A stretch of DNA of 42,160 nt from a virus. The stretch spans positions 1-42,160 of the IMG/VR virus record IMGVR_UViG_3300030329_005844; one strand, given 5' to 3'. The position numbers were made by a program, and so were the translations under genes. The stretch's first letter is position 1. Each line of letters starts with the position of its first letter. The notes under the pieces were generated by a model that was not told the origin of the DNA, ran no database searches, and worked only from the letters and a program-made list of their open reading frames with translations. Positions 1,383-30,557 of this stretch are shown in pieces.

Positions 1383-2064
1383 TTTTCTAAAAGGACACAA
1401 TTTTAAAAATGAGTATCGCATTGGTGATGCGGTATTGCATCGCAATGATGCAGAGGCGGTGGTTATTTGTGAACCTATGCAGACTCTGTTCTTTAAAGAT
1501 ACGATTTTAAATAAATACCTTTGGGAATGCCGAAAAGAAGGTAAGAATATAGACATAGACAAGTTGCGTCGAATTGCCTTAGAACTAGGAGAAGAAAAAG
1601 GGTGGGAAAAACCAAGAAAAAACGACTGCGTTGTTCATTTAAGGATTGGAGATACGAAACGTATTACTAGTAGTGAAGTAAGCACTATAATTAATAGGTT
1701 AAAACACATCAGTCCTGCTGCGGTTACTTTTGTAAGTTTCTATCATCATCCCGCACGAGTATCGGAAGAAGAAAAGGCTCGTACATTAGAAGAAAACGAC
1801 CAAACAATTCATCAACTAGAAGGCGCTTGTAAGGAATTAGGCATCAGGGTGAATTGGCGATCTTGTTTGAATCCTGATGAAGACTTTTATTACTTAATTA
1901 ATGCTGACACGCTTTTATGTACTAACGGTGGGTTCAGTATTGTCGCAGCCCTTGCAAACCCTAAATTTAATTCAGATAATTTTGTAGGGCGCAAATCTGA
2001 CAGAGAAGTATACGATTTCTACATGAAAGGCAGTGACGAACTATTATGTACCATTACCGCATAG
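1369..2064 (+). CDS. Glycosyltransferase-like protein (fucosyltransferase-type motif)
   Basis: The product has 231 residues. Residues 88-95 read VVHLRIGD, which resembles the H-x-R-x-GD nucleotide-sugar binding motif of fucosyltransferase-type GT-B enzymes. Near the C terminus, INADTLLCTNGGFSIVAALA (about 177-196) resembles the ADxxIxSxSSFSxxAA element that follows in the same families. The first 80 residues do not clearly match a complete N-terminal Rossmann half, so this may be a shortened enzyme. It would transfer a sugar from a nucleotide donor to a host or virion glycan, but neither donor nor acceptor can be read from the sequence. It overlaps its neighbours on both sides (14 and 19 bases). 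The motif match is good but the family assignment is moderate. Confidence 0.5.
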   Translation: MKPIDFLKGHNFKNEYRIGDAVLHRNDAEAVVICEPMQTLFFKDTILNKYLWECRKEGKNIDIDKLRRIALELGEEKGWEKPRKNDCVVHLRIGDTKRITSSEVSTIINRLKHISPAAVTFVSFYHHPARVSEEEKARTLEENDQTIHQLEGACKELGIRVNWRSCLNPDEDFYYLINADTLLCTNGGFSIVAALANPKFNSDNFVGRKSDREVYDFYMKGSDELLCTITA

Positions 2065-2405
2065 AAAAAATAGTAAAAGTAGTGGACGGTGACACCGTGG
2101 ACGTAATTATTGACTTAGGTTTTCATACAACTGTAAAAAAAAGAATAAGGCTGCACGGCATCAACACTCCTGAGACGCGGACTCGCGACAAAGAAGAAAA
2201 GAAGCGTGGGTTAGCCGCTAAAGAAAGATTAAAAGAATTAATTGTAAGCGAAGGGGTGTGTGAAGAAAAAGATAAAGGTTTATTCCTGAAAAGCCGAGGT
2301 CTGGGCAAATATGGGCGCGTGCTGGGAGAGTTAATAAAAGACGGGATTATTTTAAATCGAATGCTCGTCAGAGAAGGTCACGCAAAAGAATATCATGGCA
2401 AATGA
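2046..2405 (+). CDS. Thermonuclease (staphylococcal nuclease fold)
   Basis: The 119-residue product is a compact SNase domain without a signal peptide, so it should act inside the cell. The N-terminal strand carries VVDGDTVDV (residues 12-20). Residues 35-43 read RLHGINTPE, matching catalytic Arg35 and Glu43 of the classic enzyme even in numbering, and GKYGR (87-91) supplies the second catalytic Arg. The C-terminal NRMLVREGHAKEY is the usual closing helix. One calcium ligand differs: Asn40 stands where staphylococcal nuclease has Asp40. Enzymes of this family cleave DNA and RNA with calcium. The gene overlaps the previous one by 19 bases and the following nuclease gene by 11, so two nucleases are made together just before the terminase. 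Confidence 0.88.
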   Translation: MYHYRIEKIVKVVDGDTVDVIIDLGFHTTVKKRIRLHGINTPETRTRDKEEKKRGLAAKERLKELIVSEGVCEEKDKGLFLKSRGLGKYGRVLGELIKDGIILNRMLVREGHAKEYHGK

Positions 2406-3399
2406 AGATACTACCTGTCAAGTCTGCGGAAAAACTTTTGATACAATTCGCGGATTACATATTCACCTTAAGGGCCACAAAATAACGCAGGCCGAGTATT
2501 ACTGTAGGCATTTTCCTCGTTTAAACAAGCTTACTGGAGAACCTCTCCCCTTTAAAAATAGGTCTGACTATTTTAATAAAGACTTCGCCAATTATGATCA
2601 ATTACTTAAATGGTGTTCTACCGCTTCCATCGAGGAAGTAAAGCCTTATATTTTAGAACAACTCTCTCGACGAATAAAAGAGAAGGAACTTAAATTTGGG
2701 CCGTGTCATTTAGAAATGGCTCAAAAGGAGATGCCACCCATAGAGCTTTACAAAAAGATCTTTGGAAGCTATACTTGGGCTTGTGAAGCTGCAGGCGTAG
2801 AGCCTTTATATAATAAAAAAGTCAAAGAACAATTTTTTGTAGAAGACGAAAAATTTAACGATTTGAATATCTTCATTGATACCAGAGAGCAGCAACCTTT
2901 AACTTTTAAAAACTCTGAATCGGTAAAGTTGGATTTTGGAGACTATACGTTGGGCGGAGATAACTATAATTATACTTTCGTGGACCGCAAGAGTGAGGGA
3001 GATTTTTTAATAACGTTTAGTAGTGGATTTAAAAGGTTTCAAAAAGAAATGGACAGGGTGGTTCAGTTCGACAGCTTTTTGTATATTGTTATTGAAAGCG
3101 ATTTAGAGCAAATCAAAAACAACAACGATAGACTTAAGGCTGCTATTGCAATAAATAAAAATAAAGCAGCTAAAGACCGTAATCCTAAAATGAGACAATT
3201 TGCAGCTAACTTAGATTATATTTATTATAATATGAGGAAGTTAATTAGAGATTATCCCAGAAAGTGTCAATTTATCTTTACAGGAAGCAGGGAGGCATCA
3301 GAGAGGATCATTCCAAGATTATTATTTTTTGGAAAAGAATTGTGGCAGGCGGACGTTCAGTACTTTATAGAGCAAAATGGAATTAGTGGTAAGAACTAA
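2395..3399 (+). CDS. Zinc-finger protein with ERCC4/XPF-type nuclease domain
   Basis: The product has 334 residues. It opens with a C2H2 finger (Cys8, Cys11, His24, His28). A middle helical segment includes LYKKIFGSYTWACEAAGVEP (118-137), which resembles the short DNA-binding repeat found beside HNH homing endonucleases. The C-terminal half is an ERCC4-type nuclease: IDTREQQPL (161-169), FGDYTLGG (181-188) and VDRKSEGDF (196-204), corresponding to the GDxnERKx3D signature with Asp in place of Glu. Such domains cut branched or double-stranded DNA. Its position two genes before the large terminase suits either a packaging or recombination nuclease or a free-standing homing-type nuclease; the sequence does not decide. 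It overlaps both neighbours. Confidence 0.85.
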   Translation: MANEDTTCQVCGKTFDTIRGLHIHLKGHKITQAEYYCRHFPRLNKLTGEPLPFKNRSDYFNKDFANYDQLLKWCSTASIEEVKPYILEQLSRRIKEKELKFGPCHLEMAQKEMPPIELYKKIFGSYTWACEAAGVEPLYNKKVKEQFFVEDEKFNDLNIFIDTREQQPLTFKNSESVKLDFGDYTLGGDNYNYTFVDRKSEGDFLITFSSGFKRFQKEMDRVVQFDSFLYIVIESDLEQIKNNNDRLKAAIAINKNKAAKDRNPKMRQFAANLDYIYYNMRKLIRDYPRKCQFIFTGSREASERIIPRLLFFGKELWQADVQYFIEQNGISGKN

Positions 3400-3607: not shown

Positions 3608-5487
3608 GTTGGAGCGAAGGCAAACAGAAAAAACGTAAGAACGAGTGGAAAGACATTAATAACACTATTCTTGATACAAAAGGCTTTCTTGAAGAGAAGG
3701 AGGCTAAAATGTTACTTTATCAATTTTTAAGACAGAATACTACATTCGCTGTTGATTTAATGTCAGGAGTGAAGTTATTCCCCTTTCAGCATATGGCCGT
3801 AAAGTCTATGATGGAATCTGATTATTTTTTAGGCATATGGTCACGGGGTATGTCTAAATCTTTTTCTACAGCGATCTTTGCTTTCTTGGATGCTATTCTT
3901 AATCAGGGAGTGGAAATTGGAATTTTATCCAAGTCTTTTAGGCAGGCCAAAATGATTTTTAGAAAAATTGAAGACATAGCAGCCAAACCTGAAGCTAAGT
4001 TTCTTGCACAATGTATAACAAAAAAATCTAAACAAAACGACCAATGGACACTCGAATTAGGCAGAAGTCGGATTCACGCATTGCCATTGGGTGATGGCGA
4101 AAAGCTACGGGGGTTTAGGTTTCAACGAATCATTATCGATGAGATGTTATTGATGCCTGAAAGAATTTACAATGAGGTTATTGTTCCCTTTCTATCAGTA
4201 GTCGAAAACCCTACTGAGCGAGAAGATTTATATAATGCAGAAACGGCCATGATCGAAAAAGGAAAAATGAGTGAGGAAGATCGACATCAGTGGCCTAACA
4301 ATAAATTAATAATGCTATCATCTGCTTCATACAAGTTTGAATATTTATATAAACTCTATGAGACATTTGAACATCTTATTGAAGGGAGAATACCCGAAGA
4401 CAAGGAAAGTGGCGCCAAAAGAGTAGTAATGCAATTTTCCTATGACTGCGCACCTAAACAACTTTATGATCAAAATCTTGTTAATCAGGCTAAGGCTTCC
4501 ATGAGCCAAAGTCAGTTTGATCGAGAGTTTGGAGCGACATTTACCGATGATAGCTCAGGATATTTTAAAATATCAAGAATGTCAAGTTGCACAATCGCAG
4601 ATGGAGAAGAGCCAGCTATTGAAGTTGCTGGCAATCCTTCTGATAAATATATTTTATCTTTTGACCCTTCATGGGCAGAAAGTGAAAGTAGTGATGACTT
4701 TGCAATGCATGTATTTAAGTTATCTGATGAAACGCAAACAGGTACATTAGTTCATAGCTATGCATTATCTGGGTCTAGATTAAAAGACCACATTTTTTAT
4801 TTTTATTATCTAATGACTAATTTTAATATTGTAGCTATCTGTGGTGACTACAATGGTGGAGTGCAATTTCTAAATGCCGTCAATGAAAGTGAGTTATTCA
4901 AGAAAAACAAATTAAAAATAAATACCTTAACCGCCGACTTTGATAATGTCGAGAACTATAAAGACAATTTAATTAAAGGCAAGCAAGAATATAACTTAAG
5001 CACCCAAACTATCTGTCATTTGCAAAAACCAACTAGCGCCTGGATTAGAAGGGCTAATGAGCATCTTCAAGCATGTTTTGACCACAAGAAAATATGGTTT
5101 GCAGCAAGAGCTACAAATGACAACTATCACTCCCAGAAAAGCAAAAAAATCCCTATTGATAATTTAAAATTTTTAAGGAATGCAGATGTTATATTCGAGA
5201 AGCAAAGCTCTTCTGCTAAAATGATTGATTTTGTAGAGCATCAGTATGATATGATTAACTTAACTAAATCTGAATGCGCCTTGATTCAAATCACTACCTC
5301 CCCTCAAGGAACTCAGACTTTTGACTTACCTCAAAACCTAAAAAGACAAACAGGCCCAGATAAAGCTCGAAAAGACTCCTATTCGGCGTTGGTGCTCGGT
5401 GCGTGGATGATTAAATTATATTATGACATGCAGCACGCAAAGGCTGCAGAAAGTGTACAAACCTTTGTGCCTATGTTTATAAAATAA
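3598..5487 (+). CDS. terL: Terminase large subunit
   Basis: This is the DNA-packaging motor, an ATPase that pumps DNA into the prohead and a nuclease that cuts the concatemer. In 629 residues the ATPase has a variant Walker A, SRGMSKSFS (82-90), a Walker B strand ending in Asp-Glu, RIIIDE (177-182), and a coupling motif SSASYKFEYLYKLY (241-254). The RNase H-like nuclease has Asp356 in SFDPSWA, Asp417 in CGDYNGG and Asp593 in KDSYSALVLGAW as likely metal ligands. The start could be 3598 or the second ATG at 3604; an AAGGA upstream spaces better for 3604. The length is normal. The gene overlaps its upstream neighbour, and its stop overlaps the first sulfotransferase start (TAATG). Confidence 0.95.
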   Translation: MAMSWSEGKQKKRKNEWKDINNTILDTKGFLEEKEAKMLLYQFLRQNTTFAVDLMSGVKLFPFQHMAVKSMMESDYFLGIWSRGMSKSFSTAIFAFLDAILNQGVEIGILSKSFRQAKMIFRKIEDIAAKPEAKFLAQCITKKSKQNDQWTLELGRSRIHALPLGDGEKLRGFRFQRIIIDEMLLMPERIYNEVIVPFLSVVENPTEREDLYNAETAMIEKGKMSEEDRHQWPNNKLIMLSSASYKFEYLYKLYETFEHLIEGRIPEDKESGAKRVVMQFSYDCAPKQLYDQNLVNQAKASMSQSQFDREFGATFTDDSSGYFKISRMSSCTIADGEEPAIEVAGNPSDKYILSFDPSWAESESSDDFAMHVFKLSDETQTGTLVHSYALSGSRLKDHIFYFYYLMTNFNIVAICGDYNGGVQFLNAVNESELFKKNKLKINTLTADFDNVENYKDNLIKGKQEYNLSTQTICHLQKPTSAWIRRANEHLQACFDHKKIWFAARATNDNYHSQKSKKIPIDNLKFLRNADVIFEKQSSSAKMIDFVEHQYDMINLTKSECALIQITTSPQGTQTFDLPQNLKRQTGPDKARKDSYSALVLGAWMIKLYYDMQHAKAAESVQTFVPMFIK

Positions 5488-6128
5488 TGGTCCTCTATAA
5501 TAAAAAAGATAAAAGAAAAAATATAATTTTTACTCATGTCCCCAAAACAGGAGGAACGAGTATAGAAAAAGCTTTTGGCTTTGTAGTTCCAGAGGGAAAC
5601 GGGAAACACAATAACCTAACTTTACTAAAAAGTACTATGGTCAAGCAGGGGCGCCAAGATTTTTACAATAATGCCTTTAAGTTTACAATAGTAAGAAATC
5701 CATTTGATCAGCTTTATTCATTCTGGAACTACCATGTAAATATAATAGGAGACACTAGTGTTTTTAGATTTGAGAAAGATTTTAATGATTTTTTAAAAAA
5801 ATTAGATTTAAAAAATAAAACTATTGCTCCTCACCATAATTATGGAGGAAGGTACGCAGACACTGTAGCTTTGGTCTGGGCCGACCTTTTTCAAAAACAA
5901 TATGCCTATGTAGACGGTAAACTAGAAGTAGATTTCATCGGGAGGTTCGAAAATTTACATAGAGATTTTTCTTTAATTTGTAAAATCACAGGCTTTGAAA
6001 ATAAGTTGCCCCATTTAAATAATTCAGGGAAAAAGCTGCCCTATTGGGCAAGGTACGATAGGGAGAGTCGTAAAATTGCAGAAGAATTACTTGAAGAAGA
6101 CTTAAAAACTTTTGGTTATAAATTTTAA
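5487..6128 (+). CDS. Sulfotransferase, first of a tandem pair
   Basis: The 213-residue product carries both PAPS-binding elements of the sulfotransferase family 2 group: the 5'-phosphosulfate loop FTHVPKTGGTSIEKAF (15-30) and the 3'-phosphate element FTIVRNPFDQLYSFW (66-80). Later IGRFENLHRDF and the closing ELLEEDLKTFGYKF are also typical. It would move sulfate from PAPS to a hydroxyl, usually on a carbohydrate. No signal peptide or membrane anchor is present, so it acts in the host cytoplasm and depends on host PAPS. The stretch is more AT-rich than the terminase gene. Translation is coupled to the terminase by a shared A (TAATG). The acceptor is unknown; host surface glycan or a virion glycan are possibilities. 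Confidence 0.88.
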   Translation: MVLYNKKDKRKNIIFTHVPKTGGTSIEKAFGFVVPEGNGKHNNLTLLKSTMVKQGRQDFYNNAFKFTIVRNPFDQLYSFWNYHVNIIGDTSVFRFEKDFNDFLKKLDLKNKTIAPHHNYGGRYADTVALVWADLFQKQYAYVDGKLEVDFIGRFENLHRDFSLICKITGFENKLPHLNNSGKKLPYWARYDRESRKIAEELLEEDLKTFGYKF

Positions 6129-6129
6129 G

Positions 6130-6915
6130 ATGATTGTTTCTGTAAAACACAAATTTTCTTTTATACATATCCCCAAGACAGCTGGAAGTAGTCTTATAGC
6201 TCACGTAGCAGATTTGGATACGGAAATTATAGAATTATGTAGCACAACAGTATACATGAAAAACACAGGGGTTCATGTTAAAATGTGCGGTTTAAGTCAA
6301 GTAAATGATAAAAACCAAGATTTAAATCTGTGCCATGAAAAAGGCGTAAAATTTTTAGAATATGACCCATCTTTTGATTACGCTCATTTATATTATCCTT
6401 ATAATGTATTTTTGGGAGAAGAGTATTTGGGTAAAGATTATTTTTCAACAGCTTTTGTTCGTAATCCTTTTGATCGTTTAGTGTCTGCTTTCCTGTACTC
6501 TAAAAAACGAAAAGAATTTGAGAACTCACAACTCAATATAAATAAAGATACCGAAAAGTATGAAAATTTTAATGATTTTTGCGTTTATTATTTAAACCAA
6601 GAAGACTTGTTTCATCCTGTGACTCGTTACAATGTGCATTATCTTCCTCAATATAGATTTGTGTGTGACCCTTTACATATTGCAAGAAACACAAAAGAGG
6701 TTTTAGTTTCATTTGTAGGAAGGTTTGAAAAGTTAAAAGAAGACTTTAATTTTATATATCGCCATCTTGATCCGTATGGGGATGTCCCCGAATTGAATCA
6801 TAAAAGAAATTTAAAACGCCAAAGGCATTACTCTGAGTATTATTCTACAGAATCCAAAAAAATTGCAGAAAAAATATACGAAAAAGATTTAGATATTTTT
6901 AAATATACTTTTTAA
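6130..6915 (+). CDS. Sulfotransferase, second of a tandem pair
   Basis: The product has 261 residues from the ATG at 6130, one base after the previous stop; a TTG at 6112 would add six residues but lies inside the previous gene. FIHIPKTAGSS (11-21) is the PAPS 5'-phosphosulfate loop and FVRNPFDRLVSAF (109-121) the 3'-phosphate element. VSFVGRFEKLKEDF and the C-terminal AEKIYEKDLDIFKYTF match the same family. It is related to the preceding enzyme but clearly diverged and longer between the two motifs, where the acceptor normally binds, so the two probably act on different acceptors or successive positions. A strong hairpin begins at the stop codon, so this is probably the last gene of the unit. 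Confidence 0.88.
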   Translation: MIVSVKHKFSFIHIPKTAGSSLIAHVADLDTEIIELCSTTVYMKNTGVHVKMCGLSQVNDKNQDLNLCHEKGVKFLEYDPSFDYAHLYYPYNVFLGEEYLGKDYFSTAFVRNPFDRLVSAFLYSKKRKEFENSQLNINKDTEKYENFNDFCVYYLNQEDLFHPVTRYNVHYLPQYRFVCDPLHIARNTKEVLVSFVGRFEKLKEDFNFIYRHLDPYGDVPELNHKRNLKRQRHYSEYYSTESKKIAEKIYEKDLDIFKYTF

Positions 6916-22646: not shown

Positions 22647-25600
22647 ATGGCGAACAATATTAATGTAAATGTAGGCGCACAGGGTTTAGCTCAGTCTATT
22701 AATCAGCAGGTGAACCAAGCGCAAGCGGGTCTTAATAGACGGCCGCTTCAGCTTAAATTAGACGCAAAAGGATTTAGGCAACCGTTGGGAAGGATTACGG
22801 GTGATATTAATGAATTCCAGAAGTCTCTTGATGCTTCGGTCGCTCGTACTTTCGCTTTCGGTGCAGCTGTGGGTGTTGTTAACCAAGTTAACCAAGCTTT
22901 CAAAGCCCTGGTAACCACTACTATTGAAGTACAAAAAGAGCTTGCTAATATTAATGTTTTGTTAGGAGCGACAACTTCTGACTTAGCTAAATTTTCAACT
23001 CAACTTTTTGGGGTTGCAAAAAATACCGCCCAAACTTTTCAAACCGTAGCCGAAGCCGCTACTGAATTTTCTCGACAAGGCCTGAGCGCAGAGCAGACAT
23101 TGAAGCGGGTTAATGACGCGATGATTTTAACTCGTTTATCGGGATTAAGTGCGACCCAATCGGTTGAGGCTCTTACAGCAGCTGTTAATGGATTTAGAAA
23201 AGAAGCTATAACTTCTACAGAAGTTATTAATAGATTAGCTAATGTTGATGCCGCTTTCGCGGTAAGCTCTAAAGATTTGGCAGACGCTTTAGCGCGAGCA
23301 GGATCTACTGCGCAAGGAGCTAAAGTAGAGTTTAATGAATTATTAGCTGCCGTAACATCTGTACAGCAACAAACAGCTCGCGGTGGCGCGGTTATTGGTA
23401 ATGCTTTTAAAAGTATATTCACCCGCATTCAACGTAGCGGCGTACAAGATGCATTAAATGAAATTGGAGTAGCGACAAAAAATGCTGATGGTAGCTTTAG
23501 GTCTGGCATACAAGTAATTAAAGATTATGCTGCTACTTATAATACTTTGACTGACGCTCAGAAAGCTTATACTTCCGAACAAATTGCTGGAGTATTCCAA
23601 ATCAATAATCTTAAAGCTTTAGTTAATGATTTAAATAGCGAGTATAGTATTTACAATAGAGCTTTAGCTACTGCCAATAATAGTACCGATCAAGCCGCTA
23701 GAAGAAATGACGAATTGAATAAAACCATGGCGGCAATGCTTGCGCAAACCGCTGCGAGCGCTGCTCAATTGGCGGCCGCTATTGGAGACCTCGCGGCCCA
23801 GCCTGCTATTGAAAGGCTTCTTAAGATTATAGGCTCTGTAGCGGATTTTTTTACCAAAGCATTAGATCCCGAAAAAGGAAGTAAATTAGCTAAAGGATTC
23901 TTTAGTGGTATTGGGGCATTTATTTCGGGGCCTGGATTAATAATCATAGGTGGAGCATTTTTAAAACTTTTTGCTTTTATAGGTAAACAGGCTTCAGGAG
24001 CACTTAAAGAAGTGTTCAAAATGAATACTGAAACTGCTAGGCAACAGCAATTGCAACAGGGCATTTTAGCCCTTGTAACATCCGAAGAAGCTGTATATCG
24101 TCAACTTGTAGCTAATGCAGGCAATCAAGCAGCTCAAGAGCAAATTATTTTAAATGCATTAAAGAAGCAAACTGCAGAACGCGCTGCTCAACAAGCCTTT
24201 TTGGCTCAAATGGCGGCTAGCCCCGCTTTCAGGGGAGTGGAAGTAAGTGGCGGAGTAATACAAAGGCGTCGCGGTCGTCGGGGTAGAGGCGCTCCAATTG
24301 CGGGTGGCCACATTCCTGTGTTCGCTAATACTGATGAAGTTATGGTTCGCGATTTTGCTGCAAGCGCCGAAGCTGATGCAGTTCGTCGTGGAGTAGGCGG
24401 AGCAAGACCTACCGCAAGAGTAGTTAAAACTTCAATTAATCCCCAAAGAGACGCGATATTTAATCGTGATATGGTAGCCAGTATGGGAATGCCTGCTGGA
24501 GCTCAGAGGATAGCAGCACAGGGATTTATTCCTAACTTTCAGGCTCGTAAACCAAAAGCTGATTTAGGCAATACAGTAGGGATTGACGCCTCCAAAGGTG
24601 CGACCGTTACGCCTTTGGTGGGGCCTCCTCGTTTCAGAAAATTTACAGATTTTACTGATACCAGGAGCTCTTCGCCAGCCAAGGGAATTAATTTTAAATT
24701 TGGAGGTGGAGGCACGGCTATATTTGGCCCTCCTGCAGGCGCTAAATCAGAAGATTTATTAGGTAAAGCTATTAAAGAACAAGGAGCCCAAGCCAGTTTA
24801 AAAAGTTATCTAGAAGTCGTCACTCGTAGTTTTTTTAGAAATTCAAGAGTAGGAGGTAATACTAAACCTTTAAACCTAAGTGATAATTTCCCTAATCCTG
24901 CTACGGTAACTCAAGAATTCTTGCGAGGAGGAGTAAAGGGATATATTTTTGAAGAAATAATAAAAAGTATCCAGGGAGACATTAAAGACGCAAATGTTAG
25001 TGACGCTAGAAATTCTCCTTTTGATGTAAATCCAACCGCTAAAGTAGGTAAAGCTATTAAGGATTTATTTTTATTATCAGATGCAACCAATAAAGTGGAA
25101 TTAAAAAGTGGGACGAGCATTACCACTGAAAATTTAAGAAATAAATTTGTAGATGACGTTATATTAAATAGAAATAGGCCCCAAGGGTCTGTTGATCCCA
25201 TGGCGGCTATAAAATTAAAAACGGTATTAGCCAGGAGAAAGCAAGCTAATACAGCTAAAGTGGGTGCGGCAACCACTACCTTTAAGAATTTTGGGGGGCA
25301 AGGAGACGCGGGGACTTTCTTTAGAGGAAAGGACGGAGAAATTTATGGAGTAAATAAGCAGGGGAAAATTGCTCAATATAATTCAAACACGGGAAAATTT
25401 TCTATAAATCCTCGGGCTCCTAAAACAGGTACCCCTATTGGGGGTGGAGCTCTAGCCAGGTTAATGTCAACTAAAAACAGCCCCCTTGGCAAGGGAATGA
25501 GGGGGTTTCGAGCAAATGCGTTAAGTTTAGCTTCAGGTTTTATTCCTAATTTTGCTGCCATTGACCCATTGGCTCGTGCGGTAAATACTGAAAGAAAGTT

Positions 25601-28600
25601 TGGGGGAAGTCCTGTAGTAGATTTTGATCCTCGGGTTGGTACATTTGTAAGAGATAAAAACAAACAATCTAATTTATCTCAGGCCGTTGCTCAACATGGT
25701 GGTTTAGCACAAGCTTTATCTGATTCCAAGCAAATGCAAGGATTAGCCGACGGCTTCGTTCCGAATTTTAAAAAACTGAAGGGCGACGGAGATGGAGGAG
25801 GGCTACTTTCGGGTGGACTGGGCCTGAGTTTCTTGGTCACGACCTTCTTGCAGGGCATACTCAGCCAAGTTCCTGAGGATAAATTATCTGGCCCCCTTGG
25901 TAAAGTGTTAGGGGGTGCTGCGAGTGGAGTGAGCATAGGGGCTATAGCAGGGCCATGGGGGATACTTATCGGCGGTGTTTTAGGAGCTGCTTTTGAAGGC
26001 ATTAAATATGCAATGGACCCTGTTAAGATCAGCTCTGAAGAGCTGGCTAAAAGTTTAGAAAAATTAAATGCTTCTCAAAAACAAGTTAATGAGTCATTAG
26101 ATTCTTTTGCTGATGCCCAAGCTAAATTGAGAGAATCCACTAAAGCGGCAAATATATCTGGAGTCGAAAAAGCAATTGAGCAAAGCGTAGACGCTTTGGT
26201 GCAACTTCCTCCTGAAGTCGCTAAAGCCACTTTAGGTACTATTGGTAAAGGCCCTGAAGCTATAGCAAAAGTGCGAGACAAATTTGGCGGGACGACGAGA
26301 AAACAAAGTTTTGAGGGCGCACGCTTGGATTTTGTAAAAGCTAGCGAAACCAAAGACGCGGAAAAGACTGAGAACTTAACAAGAGGCGTCAAGGGGCTAA
26401 TAGGGGTGCTTGAGTCTGCGGGCGAGGTGGATACGGCTAAAATAGAACGCTTTGCTACTCAAGGTGCCCTTGGTAAGGGTTGGGAAAAGAGTTTTTTATT
26501 TTTCATTGAGGACCTTGAAAAGTCGGGACAATTAACTAAAGACGAGCTTAGGGATTTAAGCGAATCTATAGATCCTAAAGACTTCCGTGAATCTATGGAT
26601 TTAATAAAAAAGGAAGCCGAAAGAATAAATTTAAAAAGAACTTTAACTAAAATTTTAACGCCCCTTAAAAAAGCTGAATTTGATATAGATCGAGAATTCG
26701 CCAATTTAGCTAAAACTATTGAAACTCGAACGGGTTTGATAGCCTCAAAATTTGAGGGCTTAAGTGGAGCGCTAAAAACTTTGTCGGAGGGAGCAACAGA
26801 TTTATTTGTAGGGGCTGGATTTATGACTCAGCGCACGGGCATAATAGATAAGGCTACAACTTCAGAGCAGCAAATTCGCGCGGACGCCGAGCAGCAGCGC
26901 ATAGCTTTGGAAACACGAAATGCCGCAGCACGAAGCGCTAAAGAACAGCAGGATATAGCCAAGGAGTTGGCCGAGCTTAATATGAAAGAAACGCAGCAGT
27001 TAGATGAATTGCGCGCTAACACTCAGGCTCAATTAGAATTATTAACTTTATCCGAAGCAATCAAAACCAACACTGCTTTAACTGAAGGCCTCTTAAAAGC
27101 TAAAGATTTTAAAAGTCTAGCTGATACCACTCGCATTACAGAGGATCCCGCTAACAAAAAAGAAGCTGAGCGATTATTAAATATCCGTAAGTCTCTTGAT
27201 GAATTAAAAAAATTAATTCCAGGGTTAGATTTTACAGGCGCTAGCAAGGAAATAAATGAGGGACTACGGGCTTTTAATGTATCCGAAATATTACGCGGTA
27301 TTGGCTTAGATGTAGATCCATCCCAAGGAATGGAGGGAATAATTAAAAGTTTAGAAACAGAGCTGGCGGGCGCCATGGAGGGGGGGCAAAGAAGGCTAGT
27401 GCAGGATATTCTTGAGGGCCTTAAGTTACAACAATCAGTAATCGAGGATCCTGAGGAAGCTCGAGACGCTGCTATGAATCGCATTGGCGACCTTTTTGGA
27501 GTAGATTTAAGGGGTAGTTCAGATAAATTTGGCGCAGCTGTTGAGGGCCTGAATAAAGGCGAGCGTGCTATCATAGCTTCAATTACAGCCTTAAATAAAA
27601 GTTTCAAACCAATAGAGACCGCAGCTACCAGTCTGGCTCAAACTACGGCCGACTTAGAGCAGACTACTGCTAATATTACCACTGCTAATGAACAATTGGC
27701 TGAAGCTCAAAGGCAATATGCTGACAATCTTGAAGAGGTCGAAAAGGCATTAACCAAGTTGGCTAACAAAGAATTAGATGCCAACACGATGGAGGTTAGT
27801 ACTAATACGGTAAATGTAAACTCGGAGGGTAATAATGCTGCCAGAGGATTTATTCCTTCGTTTTCTCCACTTTCTCGCGCGGTAACTACCGAAAAGAATA
27901 TGGGAGGTAGACCTGTGGTTGACTATCATCCAAGCGTAGGGAATTATGTTCGTGACGGACGAACTCAAAAAAACTTTGCAGATGTAATCGCTTCTCATCC
28001 CGAAGGCATACCTCAGGCAATAAACAATTCTAAAATTTTACAAGGCGCCAACAGCCAGGGACTTGTTCCAAACTTGTTCCCCTTCTTATCTTACGCTGTA
28101 GGTATATGGGCAGGCAAAAAGGGGCTTGACGACCAGGCAGAGAAAAAGTTAGTAGAAGAGCAAAGGCAGCTGAGTATGGAACAAGAACAAATGGCTGCGT
28201 CGTCACAGGAGATTGCGGAAAAAGAGGCAAGCAAGAGGCAGAGCCAAGCTGCTCTCAAACAGGGGTCAGCAAGGGCCTTCCGCCCGATTCCTCAGCACAT
28301 ACGGTCCGAATTGGAACTCTTCGGGGTGCCAGGCATACCAGCAGTTTTCCAGGCGAATACAGACGGGAGCTTTAATAAAGTGCAACTCGAAGAAGCGGCA
28401 AAGTTTTATCTAAGGGTGCTTGACCCACAAAGCAATGACCTCCAGGGGGTGCCTTGGATGTATGACTATGTATTTAGGAACATGCTCACGAATGCCTTGT
28501 CGGAGGTGGAGGTCAGACTCTCCAAGTTTGGTGGCGGGGGCACACTACCTCCCCAACCAGTTGCGCCTGGCCCCCTCCCTGCCGCTAAAACGAGCCCTCT

Positions 28601-30557
28601 AAAAACAGCTATGAGCGCAGGCTTGTTGGAACATTTTAGAAACCCGATGTATTGGTGGCTCCAGCAAAACACGGATCCCGCAGGCACAACTGCAGTCGAC
28701 TCCCCCTTGACTGTTCAAGACGCATTTTGGGTTAATTTCATAAACTCACCTTTTGATGAATTTAAAAAGAAATACGCAGGCAATATAGATGGCGCACGCA
28801 GTAATAAAAACCAAGCCAGACTTGCAAATGCAGGAAGGGCGAACTTGGCGAATTTCTTTAATATAAAGGCAGACGACTTGGCGCAGCTGCTATTAGAGCA
28901 GGATGAGGACAGAATGGCGGAAAACAATTCATTAAAAGCAAAAGGAGTAACACCTGAGCAAGTCAAGGATTTCGTTACCAACTCTAAAGTTAAAGCATTT
29001 AAGGGTAAATCGGTTAATGATATTCTAGCTTTTATGGAGGCCTCTGATAGGCATTTAGCTAAATTAAGTAAGATTTATGTTAGTAGCAATGCGGACGTAG
29101 GAGCCGTAGAAAGAGCTATTAATCCAAATTTAGTTTCGCTCGACTTGTGGAATAGGCTTCCCAATAAAGCTCTGGCTGGAAAATTTTCGGAACAAAGGGT
29201 AAAAGAAGGGGCAAAACAAAGGCAGCAGGCTGCATTTGATATGCTGGGCAATAATGAAAAAATTGCAAAATTCCTACGTTTACTTCCTGGAATTAATCAA
29301 GCGCCTGGTGCAGAATTGGCTCAAATCCTTAAGGTTTATGGTATGGAGCAGGAATTTGCCGCCAGACGGGGTGATTATAATTTAGTAAAGTCCCTTCAAA
29401 GTAAAAAATTCGCTTCTATTTTCGAAAAAAGTTCGCCCGCGAGTAGAAATGCAATTTTTAACAGAATTAAGAATCTTAAGTCGTTGCCCGTGCCTGGAGT
29501 AAATACCCCTCAAGACTTGGCGCCCAGAAGGGATATTGCTAAAGCTTTAGGAATCGACACGTTTACGTTAGGCCAGATGATAGAGGCGGGGGCGCGGGAT
29601 TTCGAGGCCGCCCAAATGATTCAAGCCCAAAAGGACAAAGAGGCGAAGGAGGTGGCCGACCGCAAACAACGAGCAGAAGAACTGGGGGTTGCGCCAGCTA
29701 TACTTGCGGGAAACAAAGTCGGGGCTAGGAAGAACCCTTTTGCCGTAGATATAGATGTAGCCGTCCCTCAAGGCACGGGCGGTCTCGGAGCTACTATCGA
29801 TGCTAATAATGCTGCCTTTATGTCGGCGCTCACACCAATAGGGCGCCTTAAGGAGTTAGAAAGAGATGGTAGCGTTAGAAAAGGATTTTTCTTTAAACAG
29901 GGCACTCAGCTCCAACCCAGATGGGCTGGGCTATCGCCCGAGCGACTCGCCGCCGTAGCCACCCAGTTTGAAAAGCGAAATCAATTTGCGCGAGGTTTTG
30001 TTCCTAATTTTTCAGCTTTAGGGGAAATTGCTGCATCTATTGGTGCGGGTTACAAAAATCCCGTAAGTGCTAGTCAGGTTAGATCTACTAATATTCCTGG
30101 ATTAGGTAAAGTTAATTATAATACTCAAGAAAGTGTGTTTCGGGCCCCTGGAATGCAGCAGCCCTTTATCGTTCCTCCTCGTAATTCAAAAGTCGCCCCT
30201 GATTACGCGCGAAAGGTCGAGGGCAAGTTTGGGTTTAATCCTTATAAGTCAGGCTTGGCTGCGGGTGGATTTGTTCCTAACTTTCAAGGACCACCTAAAA
30301 TGGACTTTACTAAGTTTAGTGAGTCGGTTACACAGTTTGGCGAAGATGTAGATCGCTTCGCAGAGGCTATGACTAAAACTCTTGAGGGGCAATTAAATGT
30401 AAATGTAGATACTTCTACTACTGTAGATAGTGCAGCCATCAGAGACGCCGTGCAGAATGGAGTTATTAATGCTGTAACTAATTATTTTACTAGTGGTCCT
30501 GGAGTTCAAAATATAGTAGATTTATCTCAGCAAGTATTTAATCAAAACCTTGGATAA
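22647..30557 (+). CDS. Tail tape measure protein with inserted modules
   Basis: The product has 2636 residues and is the largest gene here. Residues about 55-330 match the TP901-type tape measure core (LANINVLLGATTSDLAKFST, EFSRQGLSAEQTLKRVNDAM and following helices). Hydrophobic stretches at about 419-445 and 1050-1120 could enter the host membrane. Coiled coils lie near 1411-1470 and 1658-1710. GF(I/V)PNF-type motifs at 626, 964, 1036, 1734, 1805, 2450 and 2541, with a variant at 554, delimit cassettes; residues 964-1041 and 1734-1810 are copies of one. A nuclease-like pattern lies at 769-820. Residues about 1811-2448 include two GC-rich patches. The role is to set tail length and leave with the DNA; delivery of the modules to the host is inference. 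Confidence 0.93.
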   Translation: MANNINVNVGAQGLAQSINQQVNQAQAGLNRRPLQLKLDAKGFRQPLGRITGDINEFQKSLDASVARTFAFGAAVGVVNQVNQAFKALVTTTIEVQKELANINVLLGATTSDLAKFSTQLFGVAKNTAQTFQTVAEAATEFSRQGLSAEQTLKRVNDAMILTRLSGLSATQSVEALTAAVNGFRKEAITSTEVINRLANVDAAFAVSSKDLADALARAGSTAQGAKVEFNELLAAVTSVQQQTARGGAVIGNAFKSIFTRIQRSGVQDALNEIGVATKNADGSFRSGIQVIKDYAATYNTLTDAQKAYTSEQIAGVFQINNLKALVNDLNSEYSIYNRALATANNSTDQAARRNDELNKTMAAMLAQTAASAAQLAAAIGDLAAQPAIERLLKIIGSVADFFTKALDPEKGSKLAKGFFSGIGAFISGPGLIIIGGAFLKLFAFIGKQASGALKEVFKMNTETARQQQLQQGILALVTSEEAVYRQLVANAGNQAAQEQIILNALKKQTAERAAQQAFLAQMAASPAFRGVEVSGGVIQRRRGRRGRGAPIAGGHIPVFANTDEVMVRDFAASAEADAVRRGVGGARPTARVVKTSINPQRDAIFNRDMVASMGMPAGAQRIAAQGFIPNFQARKPKADLGNTVGIDASKGATVTPLVGPPRFRKFTDFTDTRSSSPAKGINFKFGGGGTAIFGPPAGAKSEDLLGKAIKEQGAQASLKSYLEVVTRSFFRNSRVGGNTKPLNLSDNFPNPATVTQEFLRGGVKGYIFEEIIKSIQGDIKDANVSDARNSPFDVNPTAKVGKAIKDLFLLSDATNKVELKSGTSITTENLRNKFVDDVILNRNRPQGSVDPMAAIKLKTVLARRKQANTAKVGAATTTFKNFGGQGDAGTFFRGKDGEIYGVNKQGKIAQYNSNTGKFSINPRAPKTGTPIGGGALARLMSTKNSPLGKGMRGFRANALSLASGFIPNFAAIDPLARAVNTERKFGGSPVVDFDPRVGTFVRDKNKQSNLSQAVAQHGGLAQALSDSKQMQGLADGFVPNFKKLKGDGDGGGLLSGGLGLSFLVTTFLQGILSQVPEDKLSGPLGKVLGGAASGVSIGAIAGPWGILIGGVLGAAFEGIKYAMDPVKISSEELAKSLEKLNASQKQVNESLDSFADAQAKLRESTKAANISGVEKAIEQSVDALVQLPPEVAKATLGTIGKGPEAIAKVRDKFGGTTRKQSFEGARLDFVKASETKDAEKTENLTRGVKGLIGVLESAGEVDTAKIERFATQGALGKGWEKSFLFFIEDLEKSGQLTKDELRDLSESIDPKDFRESMDLIKKEAERINLKRTLTKILTPLKKAEFDIDREFANLAKTIETRTGLIASKFEGLSGALKTLSEGATDLFVGAGFMTQRTGIIDKATTSEQQIRADAEQQRIALETRNAAARSAKEQQDIAKELAELNMKETQQLDELRANTQAQLELLTLSEAIKTNTALTEGLLKAKDFKSLADTTRITEDPANKKEAERLLNIRKSLDELKKLIPGLDFTGASKEINEGLRAFNVSEILRGIGLDVDPSQGMEGIIKSLETELAGAMEGGQRRLVQDILEGLKLQQSVIEDPEEARDAAMNRIGDLFGVDLRGSSDKFGAAVEGLNKGERAIIASITALNKSFKPIETAATSLAQTTADLEQTTANITTANEQLAEAQRQYADNLEEVEKALTKLANKELDANTMEVSTNTVNVNSEGNNAARGFIPSFSPLSRAVTTEKNMGGRPVVDYHPSVGNYVRDGRTQKNFADVIASHPEGIPQAINNSKILQGANSQGLVPNLFPFLSYAVGIWAGKKGLDDQAEKKLVEEQRQLSMEQEQMAASSQEIAEKEASKRQSQAALKQGSARAFRPIPQHIRSELELFGVPGIPAVFQANTDGSFNKVQLEEAAKFYLRVLDPQSNDLQGVPWMYDYVFRNMLTNALSEVEVRLSKFGGGGTLPPQPVAPGPLPAAKTSPLKTAMSAGLLEHFRNPMYWWLQQNTDPAGTTAVDSPLTVQDAFWVNFINSPFDEFKKKYAGNIDGARSNKNQARLANAGRANLANFFNIKADDLAQLLLEQDEDRMAENNSLKAKGVTPEQVKDFVTNSKVKAFKGKSVNDILAFMEASDRHLAKLSKIYVSSNADVGAVERAINPNLVSLDLWNRLPNKALAGKFSEQRVKEGAKQRQQAAFDMLGNNEKIAKFLRLLPGINQAPGAELAQILKVYGMEQEFAARRGDYNLVKSLQSKKFASIFEKSSPASRNAIFNRIKNLKSLPVPGVNTPQDLAPRRDIAKALGIDTFTLGQMIEAGARDFEAAQMIQAQKDKEAKEVADRKQRAEELGVAPAILAGNKVGARKNPFAVDIDVAVPQGTGGLGATIDANNAAFMSALTPIGRLKELERDGSVRKGFFFKQGTQLQPRWAGLSPERLAAVATQFEKRNQFARGFVPNFSALGEIAASIGAGYKNPVSASQVRSTNIPGLGKVNYNTQESVFRAPGMQQPFIVPPRNSKVAPDYARKVEGKFGFNPYKSGLAAGGFVPNFQGPPKMDFTKFSESVTQFGEDVDRFAEAMTKTLEGQLNVNVDTSTTVDSAAIRDAVQNGVINAVTNYFTSGPGVQNIVDLSQQVFNQNLG
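24306..24539 (+). other. Tape measure cassette bounded by GHIPVF and GFIPNF
   Basis: Residues 554-631 start with GHIPVF and end with GFIPNF, 72 residues apart from motif to motif, the same distance as in the cassette at 25536. The interior (with INPQRDAIFNRDMVASMG) differs from that one, so different contents share the same frame and borders. Confidence 0.6.
24801..25112 (+). other. Candidate PD-(D/E)XK nuclease-like domain inside the tape measure
   Basis: Around residues 719-822 the pattern GGVKGYIFEEIIKSI (Glu769 or Glu770), then SPFDVNP (Asp793), then NKVELKSG (Glu818, Lys820) follows the helix-Glu, Asp, Glu-x-Lys order of the PD-(D/E)XK fold. The surrounding residues are not tape-measure-like helices. 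The assignment is by motif only and the domain may be degenerate. Confidence 0.42.
25536..25769 (+). repeat. Tape measure repeat module, copy 1
   Basis: Residues 964-1041 run from GFIPNF to GFVPNF and contain LARAVNTERKFGGSPVVDFD and a later SKQMQG. Copy 2 at 27846 aligns over the whole length with the same landmarks. The module is about 78 residues. Confidence 0.88.
27846..28076 (+). repeat. Tape measure repeat module, copy 2
   Basis: Residues 1734-1810 run from GFIPSF to GLVPNL with LSRAVTTEKNMGGRPVVDYH inside. Landmarks GG-x-PVVD, P-x-VG, VRD, SK-x-x-QG match copy 1 in order. Its right-hand motif is degenerate and marks the left edge of a GC-rich patch. Confidence 0.88.
28077..29993 (+). 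other. Atypical-composition stretch of the tape measure
   Basis: About 28085-28730 and 29570-29990 are visibly GC-rich, near 55-60 percent in sampled lines, against roughly 40 percent or less in flanking coding sequence, and use more C- and G-ending codons. The part between them returns to AT-rich. Outer borders coincide with GF(I/V)PNF-type motifs at 28059 and 29994. The frame stays open throughout. The protein is helical with Gln/Glu-rich and Pro-rich parts and matches nothing I know. Confidence 0.6.
29994..30284 (+). other. C-terminal tape measure cassette bounded by two GFVPNF motifs
   Basis: Residues 2450-2546 begin and end with GFVPNF, 91 residues from motif to motif. The interior (VSASQVRSTNIPGLGKVNYN and later DYARKVEGKFGFNP) differs from the other cassettes. 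A short helical tail of about 90 residues closes the protein. Confidence 0.65.

Follow-up and report, generated by a model that had tools for sequence, protein, structure and literature searches.

Motif-bordered cassettes in a phage tape measure protein and its relatives

The tape measure protein (TMP) encoded in the window, the 42,160 bases that make up the whole of IMG/VR virus record IMGVR_UViG_3300030329_005844, contains segments bordered by the hexapeptide GF[IV]PNF. Among its relatives, such segments are reused in varied order, homology breaks off at the motif, and several segments are recognizable as enzymes. The reading that we favor, and regard as probable, is that the TMP carries swappable enzyme cassettes which are exchanged at GF[IV]PNF and which would be carried in the tail, delivered to the host, and active there.

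Organization of the tape measure protein and its relatives

The TMP (P0001, 2636 aa) matches PhageMin_Tail (PF10145) with an E value of 4e-26 and 13 tape measure families of PHROG (best E 9e-48). PhageMin_Tail is the only domain found in it by Pfam; neither a metallopeptidase domain nor DUF4157 is found. Head-packaging genes are present in the same window, namely a terminase match (E 3e-24) and a weak portal match (E 0.002).

A preliminary description of the window had listed eight hexapeptides that pair up 72, 72, 71, and 91 residues apart, and all these positions (Table 1) and spacings proved to be correct. The TMP contains five strict GF[IV]PNF copies in addition to three variants, compared with approximately 1.5e-4 expected by chance. 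The strict motif does not occur in the other reading frames of the window.

Table 1. Coordinates of the tape measure protein in the window and of its segments. Residue numbers are those of the protein.
Feature	Position	Strand	Basis
TMP, P0001, 2636 aa	22647..30557	+	Pfam PhageMin_Tail and PHROG
N-terminal TMP region, conserved, residues 1–553, motif-free	22647..24305	+	40–73% identity to relatives
A-type bracket module 554–625, degenerate border GHIPVF (probable)	24306..24521	+	69% identity to L039 562–644 (border there GYVPNF)
Border hexapeptide GFIPNF (626)	24522..24539	+	Motif positions
Variable cassette 632–963, nuclease-like (E769, D793, E818-x-K820, K833)	24540..25535	+	Aligned columns; 30% identity to L039 cassette
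Z-type bracket module 964–1035, opens with border GFIPNF	25536..25751	+	Family 3; 55% identity to L039
Border hexapeptide GFVPNF (1036)	25752..25769	+	Motif positions
Second Z-type module 1734–1804, border GFIPSF	27846..28058	+	Same family as 964–1035
Degenerate border GLVPNL (1805)	28059..28076	+	Motif positions
Segment 1811–2449	28077..29993	+	21% identity to L039; no family match
Second A-type module 2450–2540, border GFVPNF	29994..30266	+	Family 1 (51 loci); 59% identity to L039
Border hexapeptide GFVPNF (2541)	30267..30284	+	Motif positions

In the relatives, the usual order is an N-terminal region (approximately 540 aa), a motif, module A (approximately 82 aa), a motif, one or more variable cassettes, a motif, module Z (approximately 71–76 aa), a motif, and the C-terminal part. 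The window follows this order with a degenerate A, a cassette, and Z, and continues with a second Z and a second A. The hidden Markov models for A and Z were built without the motifs; with the motifs included, the two modules merged. In the comparison with the closest relative, L039, the brackets are 55–69% identical, whereas the intervening segments are only 21–30% identical. This indicates that the short paired segments are brackets and that the payload lies between them. The paired segments had been described as the cassettes themselves; their borders are real, but the segments are mainly conserved brackets. Likewise, the earlier statement that one cassette is present twice applies to 964–1036 and 1734–1805, which belong to one family (Z), whereas 2450–2541 belongs to A, and 554–626 is probably a degenerate A module, judging from its position and the border GYVPNF at the corresponding place in L039. 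The stretch 626–964 is itself bounded by motifs and corresponds to a payload-type segment in relatives; the same perhaps holds for the stretches 1036–1734 and 1805–2450. Further cassettes that have lost their borders may lie inside 1811–2449 (28077–29993, + strand).

The relatives were collected in two ways. IMG/VR was scanned for two motifs approximately 53–73 aa apart, giving 33 contigs, 25 of which show the exact 71-aa spacing, whereas the same residues in scrambled order gave no contig. A second codon variant of the scan added seven contigs. A TMP signature was found in every match whose ORF is intact at the 5′ end. Alignment of the N-terminal TMP region revealed at least 528 relatives in IMG/VR, 80 of which were kept. 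Peptide patterns with P0001 alone as query found no relatives; these came from the motif-pair pattern and from aligning the N-terminal region. Five contigs from bacterial genomes carry relatives (four Flavobacteriales and one Verrucomicrobiales). Among cultured phages, similarity is limited to the general N-terminal TMP region (25–30%), and no A module, Z module, staphylococcal-type nuclease (SNase)-like cassette, or family member was found there. The search for proteins with two or more motifs that the preliminary description had proposed gave recurring spacing and families reused in varied order.

Conservation of the hexapeptide and exchange at the border

Within 118 loci, the motif is confined to TMPs. 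The TMP ORFs of these loci (263,691 aa) contain 490 motifs, and the non-TMP ORFs of at least 60 aa in the same loci (642,761 aa) contain none. Among 88 full-length relatives, no motif lies upstream of GGAVIGN+250. The conserved unit is (A/S)-x-G-(F/Y)-(I/V)-P-N-F-(A), with A or S at −2 and A at +6, and conservation stops there. At the DNA level, 193 distinct 18-mers encode 496 motifs, and copies inside one TMP nearly all differ (454 of 496). The peptide is kept despite the varied codons, indicating that selection acts on the peptide.

Clustering of the segments between motifs gives 89 families: six of short brackets and 83 that are variable. Twenty of the variable families have two or more members, and most of these occur in more than one neighbor context; family 4 is found in 12 contexts with 13 members, and family 0 in 15 contexts. 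The remaining 63 are singletons without annotation.

Exchange at the border is seen directly in pairs of loci. The TMPs of L036 and L014 share 98% identity as far as 16 aa beyond the first motif and then carry unlike cassettes; they next share a 224-aa cassette (85% identical), after which L014 has one extra. In five of six inspected pairs, DNA identity is 0.91–0.97 on one side of the motif and 0.28–0.33 on the other; the sixth shows 0.80 and 0.29. Homology ends inside a 7-residue target at the motif in both partners in 43 of 84 cases. For unique ends the count is 33 of 63, compared with 2.8 on average and at most 10 in 1000 draws under the null, a comparison that serves as description and not as a probability since the pairs are not independent. 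The drop in identity exactly at the motif indicates that cassettes are exchanged there. A survey of mosaicism found mosaic signal in tape measures and could not confirm genuine recent mosaicism (PMC10684548). In contrast, breakpoints between 91–97% identical and unrelated DNA show recent exchange here, and they supply the clear cases of domain exchange in tape measures that the survey lacked.

The structural setting of the motif was examined in the model of L055 (pLDDT 71), the sole structure model usable for this purpose. All four motifs lie in stretches with pLDDT below 50 (residues 1–38, 90–96, 344–354, and 419–432), and these low-confidence stretches separate better predicted domains. The model suggests that the motif sits in flexible linkers and that no continuous helix runs through it. 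The interpretation of the hexapeptide as a cassette boundary is therefore strongly supported by recurring spacing, reuse of families in varied order, DNA breaks at the motif, and the predicted linker placement; random spacing, lack of interior reuse, and a continuous helix, which would have spoken against it, were not found.

Enzyme-like cassettes

The dominant variable family, family 0, is found in 60 loci and has a nuclease-like signature, E-D-(D/E)xK-K. The residues G..FE, D, F, DxK, and K are conserved in 53–60 of the 60, and a profile scan with this family matched TMPs alone, wherever a match could be judged. In the window cassette, E769, D793, E818-x-K820, and K833 occupy aligned columns that are invariant across 43 sequences, and the catalytic signature of the PD-(D/E)XK type, E...D...(D/E)xK, is present. 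The profile link of this cassette to family 0 is weak (E 8e-5, probability 33). The catalytic-type signature makes a metal-dependent nuclease the likeliest identity of the window cassette. Its AlphaFold model is poor (pLDDT 51), and Foldseek searches of PDB and BFVD with this model and with the L055 model gave no significant match.

Pfam searches over 63 nuclease-like cassettes gave isolated weak matches only. Kinship to Mrr_cat was considered, and profile comparison failed to link the two; a restriction endonuclease-like fold is therefore not claimed. A loose regular expression for the signature matches 12 of 83 families, compared with 0.4 by shuffling, but it also matches 10 of 101 C-terminal regions, which are much longer, and it is therefore taken as supportive only. 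A sulfotransferase-like ORF that matched in the scan with the window cassette is a chance match.

Clearer enzymes are found in relatives. Cassettes in L087, L101, and L043 match CCA-adding tRNA nucleotidyltransferases in Pfam (E 4e-19 and 3e-14), in PHROG (E 9e-57), and among PDB structures of CCA-adding enzymes (E 2e-15), and the motifs GGxxRD...DxD, RRDLTxN, and DPLRxxR are intact. A GNAT cassette in L111 lies above the Pfam cut-off (E 9e-7), and a GNAT match in L027 is weaker (E 6e-4). Cassettes in L014, L030, and L117 are probably SNase-like, judging from conserved DGDT/S and RL..xDAxE; their PDB match reaches just E 0.2. One and the same region of phrog_8809 (2317 positions, function unknown) is matched by both the L014 cassette and the stand-alone SNase gene of the window. 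Motifs alone underlie the assignment of P-loops in L040, L081, and L111 and of HExxH and DWDGT in L111. The proposal that the segments are effector domains thus holds insofar as relatives carry enzyme cassettes and the nuclease-like signature is invariant, while for the window cassette itself the activity is deduced from its residues.

Three further observations concern the composition of these TMPs. The segment adjoining the CCA-adding cassette in L087 and L101 resembles a HAD phosphatase by eye (DFDETL...LTAR). The P-loop, GNAT, HExxH, and DWDGT segments of L111 all lie in one TMP. Positions 1309–1771 of the L046 TMP look like an ADP-ribosyltransferase by eye (LYRGQ...SFSTS...AKEFA), with no support from Pfam. 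The segments of L087, L101, and L111 may possibly form an RNA-repair set, in which tool support is limited to the nucleotidyltransferase and GNAT.

Possible role of the motif, proposed delivery, and known systems

A conserved yet flexible hexapeptide has the look of a linear recognition motif for processing or docking, as a plain linker needs no such conservation. One tentative explanation is that the hexapeptide is a dedicated proteolytic site at which a phage or host protease frees each cassette at maturation or after ejection. Six near-invariant residues with A/S at −2 and A at +6 between unconserved flanks would fit such a site, as would its position in flexible linkers at both cassette ends; polyvalent proteins, moreover, are thought to be processed (PMC5512222). 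However, no partner protease was identified, HExxH occurs in a single cassette (L111), and four relatives (L145, L148, L154, and L157) keep the nuclease-like segment without the strict motif, which suggests that the motif is dispensable. These four and L119 have shorter TMPs (approximately 1450–1530 aa) in which the family 0 segment is kept and the borders have decayed, and they offer a natural test of the role of the motif. An extension that we lean against, though it deserves consideration, is a "plug-in" format, in which GF[IV]PNF would both define and release each cassette, so that any enzyme placed between two motifs would become an injected one and payloads would be traded against host defenses.

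It is rather unlikely that the hexapeptide instead serves for docking to a tail-assembly chaperone, to the lumen of the tube, or to a host translocation factor, with the cassettes as passive passengers. A conserved peptide with unconserved flanks in a flexible position does fit a short linear binding motif. Contrarily, the N-terminal region is motif-free, and the number of motifs tracks the number of cassettes, whereas a motif that binds the tube should track TMP length.

In general, TMP length determines tail length, and the cassettes could be structural: folds inserted to plug the tail or to make it thicker or longer, with activity that was lost or never present. The low annotation rate agrees with this idea. 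It is nevertheless improbable, because the tRNA nucleotidyltransferase cassettes have kept their catalytic residues and those of the 60-member nuclease-like family do not vary, and plain structure needs neither. That the motif is only a DNA-level recombination joint, a short homology surviving because exchanges occur there, is very improbable: breakpoints do fall on it, but the peptide persists across 193 different 18-mers and in differing copies within one TMP.

The preferred reading, a TMP with swappable enzyme cassettes acting in the host, can be set out as follows. Behind the conserved N-terminal domain of the TMP and ahead of its coiled C-terminal part would lie a docking region. It would consist of A and Z brackets flanking at least one exchangeable cassette, with a flexible GF[IV]PNF at the end of each cassette and with whole cassettes traded between phages at this border. 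From TMP biology, the cassettes would ride in the tail tube and reach the host together with the DNA or before it; TMPs leave the tube at ejection and insert in the membrane (PMC11126660, PMC13277306). In the cell, they may act as nucleases, in tRNA-end repair, or as protein-modifying enzymes, serving takeover, counter-defense, or attack on competing DNA. The hexapeptide would most likely be a protein-level linker signal, a release or handling site, and in addition a permissive recombination joint.

Polyvalent proteins, fixed TMP enzyme domains, and TMP-like injection effectors are already known. Polyvalent proteins of phages and conjugative elements, proposed to enter with the DNA (Iyer et al. 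2017; PMC5512222), are likewise long polypeptides with several conflict-system enzyme domains (GNAT, nucleotidyltransferase, and nucleases), a set seen here across relatives rather than in the window alone. By analogy, the cassette set (nuclease-like, tRNA 3′-end repair, and acetyltransferase) suggests host takeover or counter-defense. Polyvalent proteins differ in being described as head-packaged or conjugated and metallopeptidase-processed, and PMC5512222 does not mention tape measures; here, the carrier is a TMP, its domains share one hexapeptide border, and the bracket modules are conserved. The zincin metallopeptidase that is common, though not universal, in polyvalent proteins has no counterpart here beyond the HExxH of the L111 cassette.

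Tme of Streptomyces davawensis is a TMP-like injection-system effector with an active nuclease domain (PMC11126660), and Sle1 is a tape-measure-related effector of a contractile injection system with a swappable type of functional domain (PMC13277306). Both resemble the present TMPs in joining a TMP-derived carrier with a nuclease (Tme) or a swappable domain (Sle1 type). However, they belong to bacterial injection systems and have one C-terminal domain, with DUF4157 in Tme, whereas the present proteins belong to phages with head-packaging genes and have internal cassette arrays, a shared hexapeptide border, and no DUF4157. Bacterial polymorphic toxins vary in a C-terminal toxin domain that is accompanied by a neighboring immunity gene, whereas the variable part here is internal. 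The peptidoglycan hydrolase motif of TM4 and the transglycosylase of SPbeta YomI, as cited in PMC13277306, are enzymatic TMP domains used at infection; they are fixed cell-wall enzymes, whereas the cassettes here are exchangeable and mostly of nucleic-acid- or protein-modifying types. In the open-access literature that was searched, we came across no account of phage TMPs with internal arrays of motif-bordered cassettes.

The motif is a sequence tag by which candidate injected phage enzymes, including many unannotated families, can be read from metagenomes. If delivery is true, it would explain how uncultured phages, some on Flavobacteriales and Verrucomicrobiales contigs, bring nucleases or tRNA-end repair before gene expression, and it would point to a modular way, of natural origin, to send proteins through a tail.

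Other genes of the window should also be noted. A stand-alone SNase gene lies at 2046–2405 (+ strand; phrog_452, E 1e-34), followed by an ERCC4-type nuclease domain at 2395–3399 (+ strand; phrog_3490, E 1e-10). Two adjoining sulfotransferase-like genes occupy 5487–6915 (+ strand), the first of which resembles galactose-3-O-sulfotransferase (phrog_3347, E 6e-23); the pair lies between the terminase and portal genes, an unusual place.
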